Source of the DNA: Byssothecium circinans
Taxonomy: Eukaryota > Ascomycota > Dothideomycetes > Pleosporales > Massarinaceae
Direction of reading: 5' to 3'
Assembly: GCA_010015675.1 (NCBI GenBank)
Contig: ML976987.1
Coordinates: 1,147,880-1,211,879, forward strand
DNA length: 64,000 nt
This document shows, one piece after another, positions 4,055 to 21,435 of the stretch (positions are counted from its first letter, which is position 1; each line of letters begins with the position of its first letter). The position numbers and the translations under genes are program-made. The notes beneath the pieces are model-generated. The model did no database searches, was not told the origin of the DNA, and was given only the letters and a program-made list of their open reading frames with translations.

Positions 4055-4097
4055 CCATCCCTCGAAGCCATTTATGCTCTACCTAGTCAATCCTGTG

Positions 4098-8249: not shown

Positions 8250-9267
8250 TCACGACTCTTCAACATCCCCATACTCAAGCCCCAGACTGCGCTTCAGACG
8301 CTGCTCAATATCCTCAGTAACGTCGCCGTAGAGAGCCCTCACAAGGTTCGCCACGCCCTCCTTGCCTACTTCCACCTTGCCGCGCGGTCCGACCATGTAA
8401 TCTATGATTTCTTCCCCGCCACTTGTCTCCTTGACCTTTTCAAGATATCCTTCTTTCACCATGCGCGCTATCACCTTTTCTGTATTGTCAACTGGTGTCG
8501 TCCGGTCCGCGTTCATGCGCCGGAGGAACCGGTCGAGCTTGCCTTCTGACAAGGAGCCGCCAGACAGTAGGATGAGCGATATGATGACCGTGTAGAAGCC
8601 AGAGTAGGCAGCTTCCATATCTACCTCGTTCTCGGGTGGTTCGGGTCCGGGTCCTATGATATTCCGTGTTCGGTATTCGTCGGGTAGGATGTTCTTCAGT
8701 ACATAGGTGTTGCTTGATTTTGGCGCTCCTTCTGAAGCAGCGGCAGCTACCTTGTATCAGATAAGGTTTTGGAGGGTCGTGGTAATACATACCGCGCTTC
8801 TGGCGCATCGTATGCTTCCCCTTGTTCGGAAGTTCTTCCAGCTGCATGCCGAATATGTCCATGAGCTGGCTGTTTGCTGCATCGAAAACTGCTTTAAATT
8901 TTCGGGTATGCGTGCCGAGTACTTCTGCAGTCAGCCACGGTATGATTTGATGTTCATGTCTCCATTCATACCCTTTTGTCCGACGTCCTGTCGCTTGATA
9001 GGTATCCGCGAGTATTCGCAGGCGAGTGCATAGCGAACCAGTGCTTTGGACAGCTGTGCAACACTTCCGCTGCCATGTTCCTCCTCTCCCACCTCGTCTA
9101 CCTCGTCATCATCGTCTGGAGTGTCTTCTTGCCGGCGATTTCTCCGATTCTGTGTAGATGGGGGGGTGGAGACGTCGTCTTCGGTAGACTGTATCCTGTG
9201 AGCACAGCATAACTATTTTTTTGCCTGGAAAGCTTACAGCAGGTGCTTTTCGTCGAATTGCTGGCAT
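8250..9267 (-). CDS. nse3: Smc5-Smc6 complex subunit Nse3 (MAGE domain)
   Basis: Four exons, 9267-9238, 9188-8972, 8924-8793 and 8746-8250, separated by introns of 49, 47 and 46 bp. All phases close and give 291 residues. The N-terminus is acidic and disordered. From about residue 50 a MAGE homology domain runs to near the end: LSKALVRYALACEYSRIPIK, then LMDIFGMQLEELP, then YTVIISLILLSGGSLSEGKL, and a winged-helix-like segment ending in RALYGDVTEDIEQRLKRSLG. In fungi the single MAGE protein is Nse3, which forms the Nse1-Nse3-Nse4 subcomplex of Smc5/6 in DNA repair and chromosome segregation. The promoter is shared with the divergent AIM18-like gene and contains an MluI cell-cycle box. An upstream in-frame Met at 9318 is possible. 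A different acceptor at the first intron would hit a stop. Confidence 0.85.
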
Positions 9268-9335
9268 TGTGGGTGTGTGGTTCAAGAGTTGTGCGGAGAT
9301 GTTGAAGTTGGTGGCCACTGCTGAAGGGCTGAGAG

Positions 9336-9341
9336 ACGCGT
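9336..9341. promoter_or_regulatory. MCB-type element (ACGCGT)
   Basis: ACGCGT lies about 70 bp upstream of the Nse3 start codon. This hexamer is the MluI cell-cycle box bound by MBF-type regulators in ascomycetes, and cell-cycle control would suit an Smc5/6 subunit. The match is to the sequence only. Confidence 0.4.
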
Positions 9342-9356
9342 TCTACCGTCGCGTCC

Positions 9357-9418
9357 CTTCACCGCGCTAAATTAGCGCGCTTAGTGCAAGACATCATCGT
9401 TCGCTAAGCGCGGTGAAG
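9357..9418. promoter_or_regulatory. Inverted repeats in divergent nse3/AIM18 promoter
   Basis: A 12-bp perfect inverted repeat (CTTCACCGCGCT at 9357-9368, complement at 9407-9418) encloses a 17-nt palindrome at 9363-9379 (cgcgctaaattagcgcg, one-base centre). It sits in the middle of the 224-bp gap between two divergent start codons. It is probably a shared control site; a GCGC-type E2F/MBF-like factor is one candidate. Confidence 0.5.
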
Positions 9419-9491
9419 CTCGACGATTTGAGACATTCACCCACCACACCCATCACCGAATGCATCAATACCCGCATTTTCGACGTGAAAG

Positions 9492-10850
9492 ATGACTCCC
9501 GCACGCCTTGCCGCCCGCCGCCCTCTCTTCCGCTGCCCCAATGCCCCTCTCGCGCCACGAACACAGCTTCGAAAGCTCTCCGCACCTCGACCAGATGGCG
9601 CCCTCAACAATGCGACTCGCGGTTCACGAGCTGTTCCAGATATCGACAATGTCTCTATCCATCGCGCCGAAGCGATTCGACGAGCAGCGGCTATCAGACG
9701 GAGGAATTGGCTCGCACTTGGTGCAGCGTTATCTATGATTGCGCCCATGATCTTAGTGAGGCTATGGGACGTGCCACCACCGCCAGAAGAGCAAAATGAT
9801 GAGAAGAAAGAGAAGGAAAGCAGAGGGATAATAGACCTGTTTAGCCCACGGCCCACCAAGAACGACTCCCCTCGAGCTGCCGTGGACGAGTTCCAGGGAA
9901 AGAAAGTCGTGGTCGCGGCAGGTGACAAGATCATCGCAGCTCCCGCCTCATCAGACCACCCCACAGCATCAGACGTGGATACTATCGAGCTGATAGAGAC
10001 CGGAACATCATACGTGCCATACTTTCCCAAAACGATAACGCTCCCCACATCCACCGGACCCGAATCGGTAGAAAGCGAAGCTGAGTACACACTCCTGGGC
10101 CTAGGCATACGCAAAGTCTCCTTCCTCCGTGTTCAGGTCTACGTAGTAGGTCTCTACGTCAAAACCTCGTCTCTCCACATCCTCCAAAACCACCTCATCA
10201 ACACCGTCAACCCGACGGCATCGGCCCTCATCCCCGGCGAGAAAGAAGACCTCCGCAAGGCACTACTCGACCCAGAAAAGAGCGTAAAAATATGGGAGTC
10301 TGTATTGAGCAGGAAAGGCACCGAGGCCGTAGATATGGCGTTTCGCGTTGTGCCTACAAGAGGCACAGATTTCAAGCATCTGCAGGACGGTTGGATGCGC
10401 GGTATTGCTTCCCGAACCGACGAGGTCCGACGAAAGCAAGCCGACCTCCTCCGCCAACAAGCCGCCGAGCAAAAACAAATCTCCCTTCCCAAGCCCGTCG
10501 ATGAAGGCGAGTTCTCGGACGAGTCCTTCGGCCTCGCTATGAAGGATTTCAAGGGGTTATTCCAAGGCCGCGGGAAGGCGCCGAAGGGAAGCGTTATCAT
10601 TCTCCGTCGCGACAACACAGGTGCGTTGAATGTGATGTATCAACCCATCACCAAGACGAACAAGGGCGAGAAGATGGGCGAGGTGGAGAGGCTGGGTAGG
10701 GTTGCGGATGAGAGGGTTAGTCGGTTGGTGTGGTTGTTGTATCTCGGCGGGCAGAATGTTAGCTCTGAGGATGCGAGGAAGAATATTGTTGAGGGGTGTT
10801 TGGGGCTTGTGGAGAGGCCGGTTGGGACGGTGGAGACGAGGGTGTTATGA
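9492..10850 (+). CDS. aim18: AIM18-like mitochondrial chalcone-isomerase-fold protein
   Basis: An intronless frame of 452 residues. The first 60 residues are rich in Arg, Ala and Ser without acidic clusters, as expected for a mitochondrial presequence. A hydrophobic segment follows at about 73-91 (WLALGAALSMIAPMILV). A Pro/Glu/Lys-rich linker leads to a chalcone isomerase-like domain from about residue 180 to the end: LGLGIRKVSFLRVQVYVVGL, then AVDMAFRVVPTRGTDFKHL, then a conserved SVIILRRDNTGAL strand. Yeast AIM18/AIM46 proteins have this layout, sit in the mitochondrial inner membrane and have no proven catalytic activity. It is divergent from nse3. The start is the first Met of the presequence-like stretch. 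Confidence 0.87.
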   Translation: MTPARLAARRPLFRCPNAPLAPRTQLRKLSAPRPDGALNNATRGSRAVPDIDNVSIHRAEAIRRAAAIRRRNWLALGAALSMIAPMILVRLWDVPPPPEEQNDEKKEKESRGIIDLFSPRPTKNDSPRAAVDEFQGKKVVVAAGDKIIAAPASSDHPTASDVDTIELIETGTSYVPYFPKTITLPTSTGPESVESEAEYTLLGLGIRKVSFLRVQVYVVGLYVKTSSLHILQNHLINTVNPTASALIPGEKEDLRKALLDPEKSVKIWESVLSRKGTEAVDMAFRVVPTRGTDFKHLQDGWMRGIASRTDEVRRKQADLLRQQAAEQKQISLPKPVDEGEFSDESFGLAMKDFKGLFQGRGKAPKGSVIILRRDNTGALNVMYQPITKTNKGEKMGEVERLGRVADERVSRLVWLLYLGGQNVSSEDARKNIVEGCLGLVERPVGTVETRVL

Positions 10851-11378: not shown

Positions 11379-13508
11379 TCACTTATTCAGTTTGCCTTGA
11401 CGTGCTCTCTTCTCTTTCAACCCCTTCATCTTCTTCGGCGTGAGCTGCCTCGGCGACGTTCTCAACATGCTACCCGGCGGCGACGGGACATGAAATGGGT
11501 CCTGCGGGCTCAACATACTCGGTCCCCCCGCGCCCTGGTGGTCTGGGCCGTAGTCCGGCGCTTCGACAATGCGCGCGTCGCTTGGGTGTACGATAACTGG
11601 GGCTTGTTGGTGGTGGTACGTTGTCTGCGGGTGGGTGGGTGCAAAGCCTGGTTGCGTGTACGATGTTGGTTGGGCCTCGTATGGTGTCATTGTGTTCGCG
11701 GCTCGGTGTGGTTGCAGTAGTGGCGCGGGTTCGGGGGGTCGGCGACGGTATGGTGGGTCCATTGTCACTGGGTCTGTTTGCACGCGTCGTGGAGGTGGAA
11801 AGATGGACTGCGGGGTGTGAAGTCTTTGTTCGTAGTGTGGTGCTTGGTGCTGGCCTTGCTGCGCATTAAATCCCTGATTATAGTGCGGGTCATGGACTTG
11901 GCTTTGATATGGATCGAATCTCTGATCGTAGTGTGGTTCCGGGTGTTGGCTTTGTCGTCCGTCGAAATCATCATGTATTCTTAGCTGCGGAGAGTGGTGG
12001 ATAGGATCACTGGGCTCTTCTTGTTGCATTGAACGATCGAATTGTTGATCGACTTGGTCGTAAGTTGGGTCAGCAACTGGCGGTGGCACATCTGGCCCTT
12101 GAGGTTGGTTATTGTCATATGCGCGGGAAGCTCCGGTCTCTTGTTGTGGGCTGTGAGTTGTCGCTTTTTCTTTTCCCTTACCCTTTGGTTTCGGTTTTTG
12201 CCTCCGCGTCTGAGCAACCGCTTCTTCAGCACTCTGCACGATCCATTCTACCGGATTTGTTTTGGGATCATTCCCTACGACTTTCACCCCTGCGTTGTTA
12301 TTTTGGATTTTCTCGTTTTGGAGGCTTTGCTCCCCTTCGTCCGTCCTGGTTTCCGATGGGTTTTCAACAGGTTTCTGTGTTGCTGGCTTTGGCTGACTCG
12401 AAGCGTTTGCGATGCCTTTCAATTTGGCTTCTTTTGCAGCTTTTCGAGGTTTGGACGGACCTGCTTGGACTTCTGTTTTGGAATTGACGGGCCTCCCAAC
12501 GGTCGAGGGCACGTTTTGAGCCATCAATGTTTTGCCTGGTATTGGGTTTTGCTTCTTTGGCGTCACAGTTGCTTTTTGCTGTATGGATTCGACGGTTTGA
12601 AGCTTCTTCATCTCTCGCAAATGCTTGACTTCGCCGGAAGGAGTGTCTTCTCTTGCGTGGCTTGTTTTCTGTGACTCCGCTTTCTGTTCAGTTTCGGGTG
12701 TGGTATTCATACGCTCGGCATTTGTATGGGCTATAATGGGGCTCATTCCTCCATATGATGCTTGAGACAAATCATTCGGCTCTGGCTTCAGGGTTCGTTT
12801 ATTGGTAGTCTTCGACGGACTGCGTTCCATGTTGTGTACAGCCAGTGCTTCATCCTCCAATCCCGCTCCTCTGAGTCTTTCTAGGTCGACGAATTCGTTA
12901 ACAGGAATACTATGAAGCTGGGTAGCACGCATTGGCTGAACGTCTGGCAACGCTTCCTGCAGCTCCATTCCTGGCTCCGGGGTACTGCCAAGTAGCCTAT
13001 TTCGATTGCTTGGGCCAACCGCGCCTCGATTCGGACTATCGGTTTTAGGTCTCTTAGGTCTCCTGTGCCCCTGTCGAGCACCGGAACCCAGAGATGCATT
13101 TCGACTCCGAGGTGGCCGAGCCCACTTCCCTCTACATGTTAGAAATATAACAAGAACGACCATCACCCCCAACAAAGTCCCCAGCGCTGCTCCAAGACGT
13201 CCCGAGAAGTGAGGCGCAGATGAAGTTTGAATATGAGGTAACACCTTTGGTAGAATGGATCTATCTGGCACGGCGGCTGTTGTATGAATCGAGTTTGGGT
13301 CATGGCTTCGAACGGCAAAGGTACCCTGAAGTGCGGCAACTTTGGTGTGTGACCCGCTATCTTGGAAGGTACATACCTTATTGTGATGGAGTAATAAGTA
13401 TGGTACGTTGCTTTTATTGGCGAGAGCTGGTGTGAGGTGTGAGAAAAGACCGTCCATAGGCCAGACGCCCGCATCCGCGACAGACTGATCGGCGTTTTCT
13501 CCTCTCAT
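11379..13508 (-). CDS. Single-pass membrane protein with long disordered tail
   Basis: A 709-codon frame without a needed intron. Residues 1-105 form a short N-terminal region with few features. A strong transmembrane segment lies at about 106-124 (LGAALGTLLGVMVVLVIFL) followed by basic residues, so the long C-terminal part should be cytoplasmic. That part is Pro/Gln/Ser/Lys-rich and disordered. It includes three imperfect repeats of about 18 residues around PHYDQRF, PHYNQGF and PHYEQRL (encoded near 11820-11960). No enzymatic domain is seen. The start codon is uncertain: an acceptor-like sequence lies just upstream, so a short 5' exon with a signal peptide could exist. The layout resembles fungal plasma-membrane sensor or adaptor proteins, but no function can be claimed. 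Confidence 0.7.
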   Translation of the reverse strand: MRGENADQSVADAGVWPMDGLFSHLTPALANKSNVPYLLLHHNKVCTFQDSGSHTKVAALQGTFAVRSHDPNSIHTTAAVPDRSILPKVLPHIQTSSAPHFSGRLGAALGTLLGVMVVLVIFLTCRGKWARPPRSRNASLGSGARQGHRRPKRPKTDSPNRGAVGPSNRNRLLGSTPEPGMELQEALPDVQPMRATQLHSIPVNEFVDLERLRGAGLEDEALAVHNMERSPSKTTNKRTLKPEPNDLSQASYGGMSPIIAHTNAERMNTTPETEQKAESQKTSHAREDTPSGEVKHLREMKKLQTVESIQQKATVTPKKQNPIPGKTLMAQNVPSTVGRPVNSKTEVQAGPSKPRKAAKEAKLKGIANASSQPKPATQKPVENPSETRTDEGEQSLQNEKIQNNNAGVKVVGNDPKTNPVEWIVQSAEEAVAQTRRQKPKPKGKGKEKATTHSPQQETGASRAYDNNQPQGPDVPPPVADPTYDQVDQQFDRSMQQEEPSDPIHHSPQLRIHDDFDGRQSQHPEPHYDQRFDPYQSQVHDPHYNQGFNAQQGQHQAPHYEQRLHTPQSIFPPPRRVQTDPVTMDPPYRRRPPEPAPLLQPHRAANTMTPYEAQPTSYTQPGFAPTHPQTTYHHQQAPVIVHPSDARIVEAPDYGPDHQGAGGPSMLSPQDPFHVPSPPGSMLRTSPRQLTPKKMKGLKEKRARQGKLNK

Positions 13509-13882
13509 GCAAAGGAAGCTCTCCTGTCGAAAATCATATTCTCATCAGTTTGCATTAAGGGTACATGGAACCTGGAGTTTGGAGTGAAGGTAGGTCAGTC
13601 ACAGAATCGAACGCCTGGTGTGTCACATTTCACTCCTCAGCTTCAGCCTTGGCTACCTAAGTAGCTGTGCACATAAGTATTTCCGGTGTAGAAGGAAGTA
13701 CGACATGACATGCCACCCACCCATAGCTTTGCTTATTTCTGATAGGACGGTTCCTGTGTATCCTAGATGCGGGGCGGGAGGCCATGTTCCACACAATCTC
13801 TGTCGTATAACGCATACAGAATCTCTCTTCTGGCCAAAGCCCCGCATCACTCTTCACATCACGAATCGGCCGTATATCCAGC
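13509..13882. other. Divergent intergenic region
   Basis: 374 bp between the start codons of the membrane protein (-) and the subtilisin-like protease (+). It presumably holds both promoters. No motif could be assigned. Confidence 0.5.
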
Positions 13883-16287
13883 ATGCAGCCCGTACCTCCC
13901 ACCAAAGTTGATGAGAATCTAGCGAGAGCAATTCAGCTCAAGTCAGATGGACGAGCAGGGGATGCTCTGGCTATGCTTCGCAAGGACATCGAGGACCGGG
14001 AAAAGCAGTTTGGTCCGGTACCGGCTGTACTCAAGCTACGTCAATATTATGGAAATTGGCTCCTCGAGGACGGCATGGAGGTGGAAGCAGCTCAATACCA
14101 TCGCGCAACGTTGAAGGCATGGGATAAACAGAGTGGAGCTGAACGGCACAAATCCAAGGCGCAACTGAAGCAAGAGCTCGCCAAAGCCTTGATCCTCGAA
14201 GCGAAGAAAGTCCGACTCCTTTCAGACGAGATATTCAATGAAGCTGAGTCGCTTTTGCAATCGGCACTCATCGTCCTCACTTCCCCACCACTCATCAACA
14301 ACGCCCGGGCGATGACGATACACCTCTTCCTGAGCGAGCTATACTGCGTTCGAGCATCGGCGATAGAAGAGACCAGTGGTCAGGATACACAACAGCTGTA
14401 CGAGAAGGCCACCGACAACAACCTGAAAGCCATCGAATACGCGAAGCTGACGGATCAGGGTGCGGAAGAAATTGCTACTCTCAGGTACAATACAGCTATC
14501 ATCTTGATGGAGTCGGAAAGATTCTCTGAAGCCGCTGTTCTGTTTGAAGAGCTCATCCGGTTGTTCAAGTCTCCGCCAACGGGCACGCAAATGGGCAGCC
14601 TAGGATTCAATGAGGATCATTGCGCGTCTTACAAGTCATTCTGTGTTCATGGTAAAGATACGGATACATACGTTGAGTTTTGGCGTGAAGAAGCTGCTGA
14701 AAGACAAGCGCAGCTGAAAGTTGACAGACGATGGTCGCGTGCTCTCGCCAGAGTGCGTGTTAATATCCTCAGATCCTCCCTGCACAGACTTAAGAGCGAT
14801 GATCCTAATACCGGCATCAGATTGAAAGGCACTGAGACTCTGAGCTCTGGAAGCGTTGGTGAGGCTGTTGCGCTCGCCATGTTACCTACCATGCCACGTC
14901 CTGGGGAGGCCAGAGAGGAGGACCGAACGAGTGGAGACCCCGTTCCTGTTCAAAAGCTCCCCAAAAACATGACGGTGGGCTCAACTGTAGCACACTCGTC
15001 CACTGTTGAACGCGGCCTAGTCGCTGAGAAAGACCACAAAAACTGCTTTTCAGAGGAAGTTTACGAGGAGACTATCGATGAAGGTCCACCCCCAGTGATG
15101 GGTATAAAGAGGGTTCCGACCTTTATGAGTGAGTTTGGTGGCATCGGCGACTGTGCATCGCAAGAGGGACCGGAGCACTCATTATTTGACTTCAAATCAG
15201 CGATAGTGTAAGTTTGCTGCAATCACGTACACAAGATTCAATTCTAATTATCTTAGAAACGATCAATCTCGAGCATGGGTCAAATATTTCACCTCATTCC
15301 TTCGACACATCCACGGTTATTACAGAGAGGCGGAATGCGAGGCAATCAGGGTCGCTGTTCTGGATACTGGGATCGGAGCATCACATCCTTTCCTACAAAA
15401 GAAGTGGAAACGCGAGGGCTTGGTCGACCAAGGCTACCGTAATTTCGTCACAGGTCCTGAGCAGTCGCAAGAGCCGCGAGACGATCACGGGCATGGTACA
15501 CATTGCGCTGGCCAAATCCTCAACTTTGCTCCCAAGGCGCAATTGTACGTTGCCCGCGTTGCAGCTTCCGGCATTTACTGCCGCACGAACAAAGATTTCG
15601 TGAAGAATATTGCAGAGGTGAGAGTGGAACACTTATTCCGTCTCGTCCATAACTGCTAATATGTGACAGGCTTTGGAATACGCTACGAAGACGTGGAACG
15701 TCAATATCATATCAATGTCTCTAGGACTGGATCAGCCAGACGTCCGAGTCACGGAGGCCATCAGAGAGGCACACTACAAGAACATAGCCATCTTTGCAGC
15801 AGCGTCGAACTCAGGAACACGGAGATCTATTGCCTACCCAGCCAGCAGACGGAGTGAGGTGTTCTGCATCCATGCTTGCAATGGGCTCGGCAAACCTTCC
15901 TCATTCAATCCAAACGTGGAAAAGGACATCCTCAACTTCTGCATCCTCGGTGAGAGCGTCCATTCCATATGGCTCAATGATGACGAAAGCGCCGACACGT
16001 TCACGCATAAAGAGCTACTGGGAAGATGGAAGTACATGTCAGGGACTTCTATGTCAACACCTCTGGCTGTGGCATTAGCTGCCAATATCCTGGCGTTCGC
16101 ACGAATGCATCTGTCTTCTTTTCCAGATATAGAGACCCCGGAGCTACTTCGCCATGTTTTACAAGCCATGAGCAAAGATGCCGAAGGGTACCTCAGCATA
16201 ACTCCTTGGGAAGGGCGACATCGCCACTTCGCTGGGTACAGGGACTATGGCAAGTTTCTGGCTGCTTTCACGGGGGTCGTCAGGTAG
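13883..16287 (+). CDS. Helical/TPR-like N-terminus + subtilisin-like (S8) serine protease
   Basis: Three exons, 13883-15207, 15257-15617 and 15670-16287, with introns of 49 and 52 bp; all phases close and give 767 residues. Residues 1 to about 250 are alpha-helical with TPR-like Ala/Leu/Tyr spacing (EEIATLRYNTAIILMESERF then EAAVLFEELIRLF). There is no signal peptide, so the protein should be intracellular. The S8 domain covers about 470-767 with a complete catalytic set: Asp478 in VAVLDTGIG, His521 in DDHGHGTHCAG, oxyanion Asn609 in AAASNSG and Ser689 in SGTSMSTP. It lies 491 bp upstream of a gasdermin-like gene on the same strand. The Podospora HET-Q2 protease, which cleaves the gasdermin HET-Q1, is the closest functional parallel. 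Cleavage of the neighbour is inferred from this arrangement, not shown. Confidence 0.88.
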
Positions 16288-16600
16288 CGCGTCCTTGTGG
16301 TTGATCACGGGAAGTGCGTTTTGAAGGATTACATAGACCGCTTCACTCTCAGGATAATCGTCTACCCCTCTTTTGCATACTCGTCTTTCTAAAATTGTAC
16401 CTCCGCAAACTTGTACGTGCTGGGCTGCTTTCACTGAAGCCACCATATAGCGGGTTCCTGTTATTTGTGGATCCAGTATCTCGGGAAGTTCGTTTCTAAA
16501 ACGTTGCGTAGGACCGCCTCACTCGCAGGATAATCATCTACCCCTCTTTTGTGTACTCAATTTCCTGAAACTGTACCCCCGGAAACTTGAACTGCAGGAT
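16257..16600 (+). repeat. Diverged tandem duplication (~172 bp unit)
   Basis: Two adjacent copies, about 16257-16426 and 16427-16600, align at an offset of about 170-176 bp. Matching anchors are ggctgctttcac at their starts, cgggaagt at 16308 and 16482, and aggataatc followed by tctacccctcttttg in both. Copy 1 contains the last codons and stop of the protease gene; copy 2 is entirely intergenic. Many bases differ, so the duplication is old. Confidence 0.75.
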
Positions 16601-16778
16601 CCATACAATCCCAACAAGAGTACAATCCGCCCTTCGAAGCGCTCGTACCATCACACTGCATCGTCCTCTAATCTTGGACTGTAGCACTAGTTCCTATTCC
16701 CTCATTCCCACACTCATCCCGCCCATCCCTCCTCCAAATATTGCCCTTCTCTATGGCCAGCTTCGGCAATCACCAACA

Positions 16779-17749
16779 ATGTCCTCCCACCAAAAAGCCT
16801 ACTTCATCCTCCCCAACACCGACATCGCCCCCAACACGCTTATAAAGCTATGTCAAATCGTACCCTCCATCCGCGAAGCCCATCGCGCAATCAGCCCCCC
16901 ACAGCCCATACCAGCGGCATCAGCCACCACAGGCGTGAAGACAGACTACACGCTCTCAATATCTTCAACGCAGAACATCCGCGTGGGGCCAGTAGCTCAT
17001 TTCCTCGCGCAACTCGGGAGTCCCGTCTCAGGAGCTCTCGAATTAGGTACAATACATCCCATCCCAAGCAACCCCCCCCCCCCACCCCAACCCAACCCCC
17101 CCCAGAACGCAGCAAGAAGAAATCCAGTACCTGGACCTTCAAAACCCTCGAAACCACCTCCTTCGAACCAACCCTAGAATACATCCACACCAGCATCTCC
17201 TCCGCGGCCGCCAAGCAAGCCCTCAAGAAAACTATGAAGAATCCCCTCGTCCGCAATGCCGTGTACATGATCACAGCCCTCAAGATAGCCCGCGGCGCTT
17301 CCTACTCCACCAGCACCTCGCGGAGCTCCGACACCAAATCTACACTCACCGTCGATGCGAACGCCCTCGCCGGAGTCCCTGTTAGCGCGGGCCCGCAGGC
17401 CGGTATCAAGGAGACGGCCGGGGAAAGTGAGGATATGGGGCACTGTAGTGATTTTGTGTGGGCGGTGAGGACGCGGAGGATCAGGTTGGGGGGGCTGGAT
17501 GTGAGGGTCAAGGTTGGGGATGTTTATGGGGGGGATTTGCATGGGTATGGCGAGGGGAGTGGTGAGGGGGATGATGATGATTTTGGTGGGGTCGATGGTA
17601 GTGATGAAGAGGAGGTGGTGGAGGTGGAGAAGGGCGAGTTGGAAGCTTTTGATCTTGGTGTTGGTCTTGGTGTTGGGGATCAGCTGGAAGGGTTTGTGAA
17701 GAAAGTTGTGGTTGATGAAGGAGGGGAGCAATGCGCTGTACTTTGGTGA
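16779..17749 (+). CDS. Gasdermin-like protein (HET-Q1/RCD-1 family candidate)
   Basis: Two exons, 16779-17046 and 17106-17749, with a 59-bp pyrimidine-rich intron; the phase closes and gives 303 residues. The start (MSSHQKAYFILPNTDIAPN) and the following strand-rich region resemble the N-terminus of fungal gasdermins of the RCD-1/HET-Q1 type, as do the Trp-Thr-Phe strand near residue 100 and the helical segment at about 120-152 (VRNAVYMITALKIARGAS). Length also fits (about 250-300). Residues 239-270 form an acidic Gly/Asp/Glu linker, and 271-293 an amphipathic tail, a candidate C-terminal inhibitory piece removed by proteolysis. Family members make plasma-membrane pores and cause heterokaryon-incompatibility cell death. 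The adjacent S8 protease gene strongly supports the call, which rests on recalled family features and not on an alignment. An alternative is an unrelated lineage-specific protein. Confidence 0.68.
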
Positions 17750-19483: not shown

Positions 19484-21435
19484 TCAATCATCACCATCGC
19501 CATCGCCATCCTCCTTCTTCCCCACAGCCTCGAACTCCACCTCGCCCTCCACATTCCCCCCCTTATCCCTCCTAACCATCCGATACTTCCCGCCGTCCCA
19601 AAGATCCTTCAGCGTAATCTCCTTCGTCCTACCCAAGCTCTCGATATCGCCGATACGCTCGAGCGTCGCCTCCAGGAACGCCTCAAACCCGGGTTCCGAG
19701 CACACCTCGTTGAAGGCGCGTTGCATGGGCACCGAGTCGGCGCGCACCATGGCGTGCGAGTCGATTGCGAAGATGGAGAGTTCGTGGTGCTGGCGGATGA
19801 AATCCGCGCGCGTCATGATGAAGCGTGCCTGATGCAGCGGGAATTCGGGCAGGATGTGCCCGCGTTTGGGGTCGTAGATGTGTTCCATTTCGAGGGATTT
19901 TTTGTAGAGGGCCAGGGCGAGGACCATGGCTGTGGACTGGGGGAGAATTGGTCAGACACTTTTTGGGAAGAGGGATGAAGAGGAATGGGGGGGGGGGGGG
20001 GGGGGGGGGGGGGGTTTGAGACTTACGGCGTACTTTTGCTGGTCCATGACATCGTCGTCCATTTCCTCGCCGAGGATGCCGCAGTTGTTGAGGAACCATG
20101 TCTTCTCCATCAGGCAGATCTCGTCACACTTCTTAATCATGTTTTGGGATTTGGCCACGCGGTTCAGGAAGGTTAGACGGCCTCCTATCTTGTCGTAGAC
20201 TTCTTCTAGAACGGGCACGGGGGTTACTTCCTGCCAGTACTTCATGCGGTAGTTGCGTAAGGCTTGCATGGCGCGGTTTTTGGGGAGGTCGGATACCTGC
20301 GTGACCTCCATCCGGGTGGCGTGGTGCTTAAGCCGTTCGTAGACCCAGTATTTGTCCGAGTTGATGATGACGGTGGCGAGGTTCGAGGCAGCCCATTGTT
20401 CCGCGCGTTGCTGGATCAGCTCGATCAGATCACGGCCATTCTCATCGTCCCTGATTAGATGCGCTTGGTTGATGATCAGAATGAGAGGCCTTCCAACCCT
20501 AGCTCGGCGTCTCAACGCGACCTTTTCGAGCTTGTTGAAGGCTCGCTCAATGTCCAGTAGAGCTGATGCGTCGCGAGGTCCTCGGATGGAGAAGAGAGCG
20601 CCAATGTTGTCCTCGTGGAATTCAAAGTCCAGACATCGTCCAAGGCGGATGCGGAATATCTCAGGGTCTGCGTGTGCCTCTAGCATGGCGACGCCTTCGC
20701 CGTCGATCTTGGACATGGCATCAATCAGCATCGAGCTCTTCCCAGTTCCCTTCTCGCCGATGAGTAAATGGTAGCGTCCCTTCTCTTCACCGCTGATGAT
20801 CTTGTCGATGCGATCTTGCTCCTCTCGAGGGATCCATCGGTCGCTGACGTCTTTTATTTGAGGGGTTTCGCTATCAGGATGATCTTCTTTTGGTACCTCT
20901 TTTCCGGAGGCTGCGAGTTCGAGCACGGGATCACCGGGGGTAAAGGCGTTTTCCATCTTTTGCAGCACCATATGTTTGTAATACCTCGTGTAGCTGTAAC
21001 CGACCAAGCCGAGGATAAAGATGGAAGCGCCAGTTGTCATGGCGGATTCGAACATTTTGAAGGCGGTGCTCTTCCATTTTGACGATTTGGCCTCCTCTTT
21101 TTCAGGGCGAGTTCCTTCTTCGTGGACGCTCTCTGTTGCATCGTCCACGGGATTGGGTGGGTCATTGCCGGGTGCTTTTCAAGTTAGTACGCAAAATGAA
21201 TGTACGAGTAGCAGAGATTGACATACTGTATGAGTTAGTAGAGTCGACATGAGGATGGTCCCGCGTACCTGGGTGCGCCGCTCTGGCCAGTCAATGTGCG
21301 CCGGAATGACGTCTGGATTGGTGTCACGCTTCGGGGTCCAGGCGGCCGAAACCGACGCGGGAATAGATGTGGTTGACGCCGTTGAAACAGGACATGGACG
21401 CGTGTAATGGCTATAGGAGTGCGCATTAATGACAT
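19484..21435 (-). CDS. Mitochondrial AAA-type ATPase-domain protein
   Basis: The supported parts are an exon reading from about 21180 to 20027 and a last exon 19935-19484, joined by a 91-bp intron (GTAAGT, CCCCCAG). A transmembrane segment (TGASIFILGLVGYSYTRYYK) is followed by a P-loop NTPase domain with Walker A GEKGTGKSS and a Walker B-like LILIINQAH, where Asn replaces the usual Asp. The C-terminal region is helical or winged-helix-like and acidic at the end. The layout matches conserved fungal mitochondrial inner-membrane ATPase-domain proteins distantly like Yme2, but without its RNA-binding domain. A frame from Met 21435 reads like a mitochondrial presequence (Arg-rich, PRRFRPPG). I could not close the splice phase between it and the next exon: donor GTACGC leaves the wrong phase, and donor GTATGT follows a stop. 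The exact N-terminus is therefore open. Confidence 0.75.
19987..20014. repeat. 28-base G homopolymer in intron
   Basis: An uninterrupted run of 28 G sits inside the intron between the last two exons of the mitochondrial ATPase gene (a C-run on the coding strand, before the acceptor). Its true length is unreliable in most sequencing chemistries. Confidence 0.95.

Follow-up and report, generated by a model that had tools for sequence, protein, structure and literature searches.

A genuine gasdermin-type gene lies beside a protease gene in the fungus Byssothecium circinans. We propose, with a probability of about 0.8, that the two genes form a regulated cell-death module, in which a latent sensor protease combining a TPR-like domain with a peptidase S8 domain cuts the linker of the gasdermin and frees its pore-forming core. 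According to this proposal, the gasdermin would be made inactive, restrained by its own C-terminal tail of ~39 residues, and the TPR-S8 protein would stay latent inside the cell until its TPR solenoid detected a trigger, which might be a foreign or altered-self protein. Once activated, the protease would cut the acidic linker, about residues 232–264, and the tail would depart. The freed core would then oligomerize into plasma-membrane pores, leading to the death of the cell or hyphal compartment. The neighboring protease is the putative partner that probably switches the gasdermin on.

The two genes were identified in a stretch of 64,000 nucleotides (the window, whose numbering is used below; contig ML976987.1) from an assembly of 48.4 Mb in 109 contigs. 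The protease gene occupies positions 13883..16287 of the + strand and encodes 767 aa, as deduced from splice enumeration and translation. Its exons are located at 13883–15207, 15257–15617, and 15670–16287 (stop codon at 16285–16287), separated by introns at 15208–15256 and 15618–15669. Three alternative splicings also keep the frame open, giving 760, 762, and 769 aa; the model picked is the one with the usual GTGAGA...TGACAG intron. The Peptidase S8 domain (residues 472–724; 15345..16155, + strand, spanning the intron at 15618–15669) was matched by Pfam with an E-value of 7.9e-27, and residues D478, H521, N609, and S689 are situated within S8-type motifs of the translation. A sequence-only reading of the same DNA had described a complete subtilisin-like protease with these four residues, followed after 491 bp by the gasdermin gene on the same strand. 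Both statements are confirmed, the intergenic gap extending from 16288 to 16778 with both genes on the + strand. This gap contains an imperfect 81-bp direct repeat (16336–16416 and 16512–16592, 83%). Neighboring genes encode a chalcone isomerase-like protein (9489–10850, E 7e-61) and an AAA ATPase (19952–21178, E 8e-11), and a 720-aa ORF on the − strand (11379–13541) matched nothing in Pfam at E 0.01. Shortly downstream of the gasdermin gene, the segment 18300–18870 is AT-rich (GC 0.38 vs 0.52 for the window), with a TpA/ApT ratio of 1.93 and a (CpA+TpG)/(ApC+GpT) ratio of 0.58, which we take to be values typical of repeat-induced point mutation.

The gasdermin gene (16779..17749, + strand) consists of two exons, 16779–17046 and 17106–17749 (stop codon at 17747–17749), with an intron at 17047–17105, and encodes 303 aa. 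This model is one of several open splicings and was chosen for its full-length identity to an annotated protein, CC80DRAFT_592177 of B. circinans, which the product matches with 100% identity over its whole length. Pfam returned nothing above the cut-off for the 303-aa protein, and its sole match, LPD34 at E 0.021, was rejected. Pfam by itself would miss this gasdermin, and its identity is settled by the PDB sequence search. RCD-1 is the best match of the protein among solved structures, with an E-value of 1.8e-10 for the single sequence. A profile of the gasdermin matched RCD-1 at E 4.2e-34 and HET-Q1 at E 6.5e-6. The search against RCD-1 and HET-Q1 that the sequence-only reading had suggested thus revealed homology in the core together with the gasdermin N-domain fold, and the gasdermin-like identity assigned to the 303-residue product is upheld. 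HET-Q1 was not among the fold-search matches listed (the best 50 of 360, and the best 50 of a second fold search).

The gasdermin is divided into a core, a linker, and a tail. The pore-forming core (residues 5–231; 16791..17530, + strand) holds the intron. It is followed by a variable linker of 33 aa (residues 232–264; 17531..17629, + strand), which is the likely cleavage zone, and by a conserved C-terminal tail of 39 aa and ~4.1 kDa (residues 265–303; 17630..17746, + strand), a putative auto-inhibitory peptide. The linker contains 14 D/E and no K/R residues, so its earlier description as acidic is borne out. The mean pairwise identity is 0.38–0.51 in four blocks of residues 1–231, 0.28 in the linker, and 0.42 in the last 39 residues. 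These means were taken over eight close family members (P0001–P0007 and P0009), with the exclusion of P0008, whose tail is seemingly out of register, P0010, and paralogue 2. The succession of core, linker, and tail, with the tail more conserved than the linker, matches the HET-Q1-type anatomy. A variable charged linker followed by a conserved tail is the pattern expected of a protease-released inhibitory peptide, and we infer from the alignment that the tail may be such a peptide. In the AlphaFold model, residues 219–303 have a pLDDT under 50, the linker and tail are unplaced, and no helix is formed in the tail; the amphipathic tail claimed before is not supported by this model.

The tail residues D272, G274, G285, D293, E294, E297, and C299 are invariant among the eight close family members wherever a letter is present. 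C299, whose codon is at 17732..17734 (+ strand), is found in 8/8 of these members, the B. circinans protein counted, as well as in paralogue 2. A cysteine also lies 10 residues before the end of P0010 and 11 before that of P0008. It is conceivable, though unlikely, that the tail serves as a lipid or redox latch, with C299 S-acylated or oxidized and holding the pore-forming core closed. The conservation of C299 is observed; its lipid or redox role is speculation. The idea is weakened because the tail of paralogue 3, read from the frame translation, has no Cys, and because the C299 column loses its invariance once the distant P0010 is realigned. If it were true, the latch would mirror in a fungus, from the other end of the protein, the N-terminal palmitoyl-Cys reported for a bacterial gasdermin, and the TPR-S8 protease would release a lipidated latch.

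Over its first ~230 residues, the protease forms a TPR-like helical solenoid that is absent from the sequence-only reading. This putative sensor (residues 7–227; 13901..14563, + strand) is predicted by AlphaFold with block pLDDT values of 62–94 over residues 11–230, and it matches kinesin light chain TPR structures in Foldseek with an E-value of 3.1e-5. The protease is therefore fused to a superstructure-forming repeat, as judged from both programs. In Pfam, TPR_12 is weak in the B. circinans protease itself (E 0.015); in its two nearest relatives it scores E 8.1e-5 (P0017, the Massariosphaeria orthologue) and 1.4e-4, both below the Pfam cut-off. Compared with these two relatives, the S8 part is 40–42% identical and the TPR part 25–29%, and on these two comparisons only, the likely sensing half of the protease diverges faster. 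Among the 48 best S8 relatives (P0017–P0064, among the 120 of 914 matches listed), the precomputed annotation gives DUF7580 for 39, a patatin domain for one, S8 alone for seven, and none for one. These varied annotations indicate that the protease domain occurs in combination with different partners. The full-length protease search, with words from the first 500 residues, listed six S8 matches with no fungal name among them. No B. circinans protein was among the matches listed in that search or among the best 120 of 914 in the S8-region search, and the database seemingly holds no annotated B. circinans protein of fitting length for this gene.

The pairing recurs within the genome. Gasdermins were sought with three queries, and each of the three clear ones found (3/3) has an S8 locus no more than 10 kb away. 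The count runs from the gasdermins outward, in a genome with at least 20 S8 loci. If 20 S8 loci are assumed and placement is random, the chance of 3/3 within 10 kb is 5.6e-7, and it is about 7e-5 (0.00826 squared) when the starting pair is left out. The second gasdermin, on contig C13 (L012 4378–5265, − strand), matches RCD-1 at E 6e-12. It is in head-to-head orientation to a large TPR-S8 gene that runs from about 6660 onward on the + strand into L013, to position 4066. In this gene, TPR_12 reaches 42.7 bits vs a cut-off of 30.1, and S8 is matched at E 8.8e-28. A long low-complexity region rich in proline, glutamine, and serine separates its TPR from its protease domain, and between the two genes there is an ORF encoding a hydrophobic segment rich in Cys (L012 5846–6370, − strand). 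The third gasdermin, on contig C3 (L052 526–1443, + strand), matches RCD-1 at E 1.5e-24. Its S8 gene is ~7 kb away (8433–9463, − strand), and a hAT transposase gene intervenes. The gasdermin frame has one internal stop, possibly within an intron. Upstream of this S8 gene there is a 112-aa frame with no Pfam match, and farther upstream only frames of ≤112 aa were found. This third pair may be decayed.

Weaker candidates were also encountered. A gasdermin candidate on contig C2 (E 0.025) was rejected, as it is a low-complexity frame antisense to a 661-aa ORF and was missed by the local profile. Contig C8 has a weaker gasdermin match, at E 0.2. A 317-aa ORF beside a CHAT gene on contig C14 (L047:2583–3533) resembles a gasdermin over a short stretch and contains an acidic region; its profile E-value is 0.015 (2646 ORFs) and its hhalign probability 30%. 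No Pfam match was obtained for this ORF, and no PDB match for a 267-aa part of it. It is possible that it represents a distant gasdermin of the CHAT cluster. The profile search revealed no clear gasdermin in 13 stretches surrounding CHAT matches.

Gasdermin relatives are found in five other named species, and the synteny in related fungi that the sequence-only reading had set as a test is only partly seen. For Massariosphaeria phaeospora, a contig size of 355640 is listed for the gasdermin as well as for the best protease match, which suggests that both orthologues are on one contig, with adjacency not implied. The other four of the five species have no such match listed. In Lophiotrema nucula the gasdermin and protease contigs differ in size (359800 vs 215347). 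The three remaining species have no protease among the matches listed (best 120 of 914).

Several other explanations of the locus should be considered. An accidental placement of a gasdermin gene 491 bp from an unrelated S8 protease is conceivable in a genome with at least 20 S8 loci, but the 5.6e-7 chance of the threefold pairing and the equal-sized contigs of the M. phaeospora orthologues make it hardly credible. The gasdermin could also work uncleaved, by a pairing of variants as in RCD-1, with the protease being a neighbor that has another substrate. Since RCD-1, the best sequence match, is reportedly triggered by two co-expressed variants, the nearby protease is in itself no proof of cleavage, and the genome contains diverged gasdermin paralogues. 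However, RCD-1-1 and RCD-1-2 are reported to have only 257 and 244 aa, and the profile match ends at position 229 of 294, so the linker and tail have no counterpart in the RCD-1 match. In addition, HET-Q1, reportedly a cleaved gasdermin, is matched by the same profile, and 3/3 clear gasdermins are near S8 loci. We therefore regard a cleavage-free mechanism as very unlikely.

The sequence-only reading assigned the pair to the het-Q type and proposed that it controls allorecognition or defense-related cell death. An allorecognition (heterokaryon incompatibility) locus would carry divergent or alternative alleles in different strains, the mixing of which kills fused cells, and such a role in allorecognition is described for two loci of fungal gasdermins, rcd-1 and het-Q (PMC12881547). 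The het-Q1 and het-Q2 genes are reported there as idiomorphs, that is, different genes at one locus. In B. circinans, by contrast, protease and gasdermin stand side by side in one assembly, that of a single strain, and the equal-sized contigs in M. phaeospora would be unusual for alternative genes. Allorecognition is therefore unsupported and, in our estimate, distinctly improbable, and a defense-related form of regulated death is the more plausible reading. The identities of the two genes and their pairing stand, whereas the het-Q label is imprecise because the protease is a 767-aa protein with a TPR-like domain and the two genes coexist.

Our preferred reading, cleavage of the gasdermin by its TPR-S8 neighbor, fits a known class of fungal loci. 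Clave et al. 2022 is said to be the primary paper on two-gene clusters of fungal gasdermins and HET-Q2-like (Q2-L) proteases. As far as the available descriptions of these clusters go, they share with the present pair a gasdermin and an S8 protease gene less than 10 kb apart, a TPR-type repeat fusion, and a short C-terminal tail, and no categorical difference was found. The protease domain of such Q2-L proteins is S8 or CHAT, and its fusion to a superstructure-forming repeat is frequent but not universal. Two reviews state that ~80% of fungal gasdermin genes have protease genes within 10 kb, that S8 accounts for about 60% of these proteases, and that fusions with TPR, ANK, or WD40 are among the most abundant protease architectures (PMC12881547; PMC10989679). 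Since gasdermins beside repeat-fused S8 proteases are known to be common, the Byssothecium pair adds one more member.

The HET-Q1/HET-Q2 system of Podospora anserina likewise has an S8 protease and a gasdermin with a core and a short tail; HET-Q1 is reported to be cut at F238 with removal of 40 residues (PMC10989679), vs 39 conserved residues here. HET-Q2, given as a 388-aa S8 protease in the same source, has little space for another domain, and its gene and het-Q1 are idiomorphs, whereas the adjoining B. circinans gene encodes a 767-aa protease that also has a TPR-like domain. The RCD-1-1/RCD-1-2 pair of Neurospora crassa (PDB 8jyz, 8jyx, 8jyy) has the same pore-forming fold and is the best match in both sequence and structure. 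The match ends with the core, and the trigger described for RCD-1 is the pairing of co-expressed variants (PMC12881547), whereas in B. circinans the core continues into an acidic linker and a conserved tail, and a protease gene lies next to that of the gasdermin. A TPR-bearing CHAT protease accompanies a gasdermin in P. anserina, and gasdermin operons are described in bacteria (PMC12881547; PMC10989679). These systems also encode a repeat-fused or other protease beside the gasdermin, but the CHAT enzyme is a cysteine protease and the B. circinans enzyme an S8 subtilase. The bacterial gasdermin is reported to be palmitoylated at C3 (PMC12881547; PMC10989679), in contrast to the conserved Cys close to the C-terminus in B. 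circinans.

No publication naming B. circinans together with gasdermin was found among the best matches listed in one literature library. The present analysis contributes a gasdermin/TPR-S8 pair that was examined at the level of sequence and predicted structure. Modestly new are the occurrence of three gasdermins near S8 genes in one genome, the TPR-like domain, and the conserved Cys-containing tail. The conserved tail and its Cys lead to a concrete, testable hypothesis on how short-tailed fungal gasdermins may be kept off. Byssothecium would also be a workable setting for a question that a 2025 review describes as open, namely, which stimuli activate the sensors (PMC12881547).
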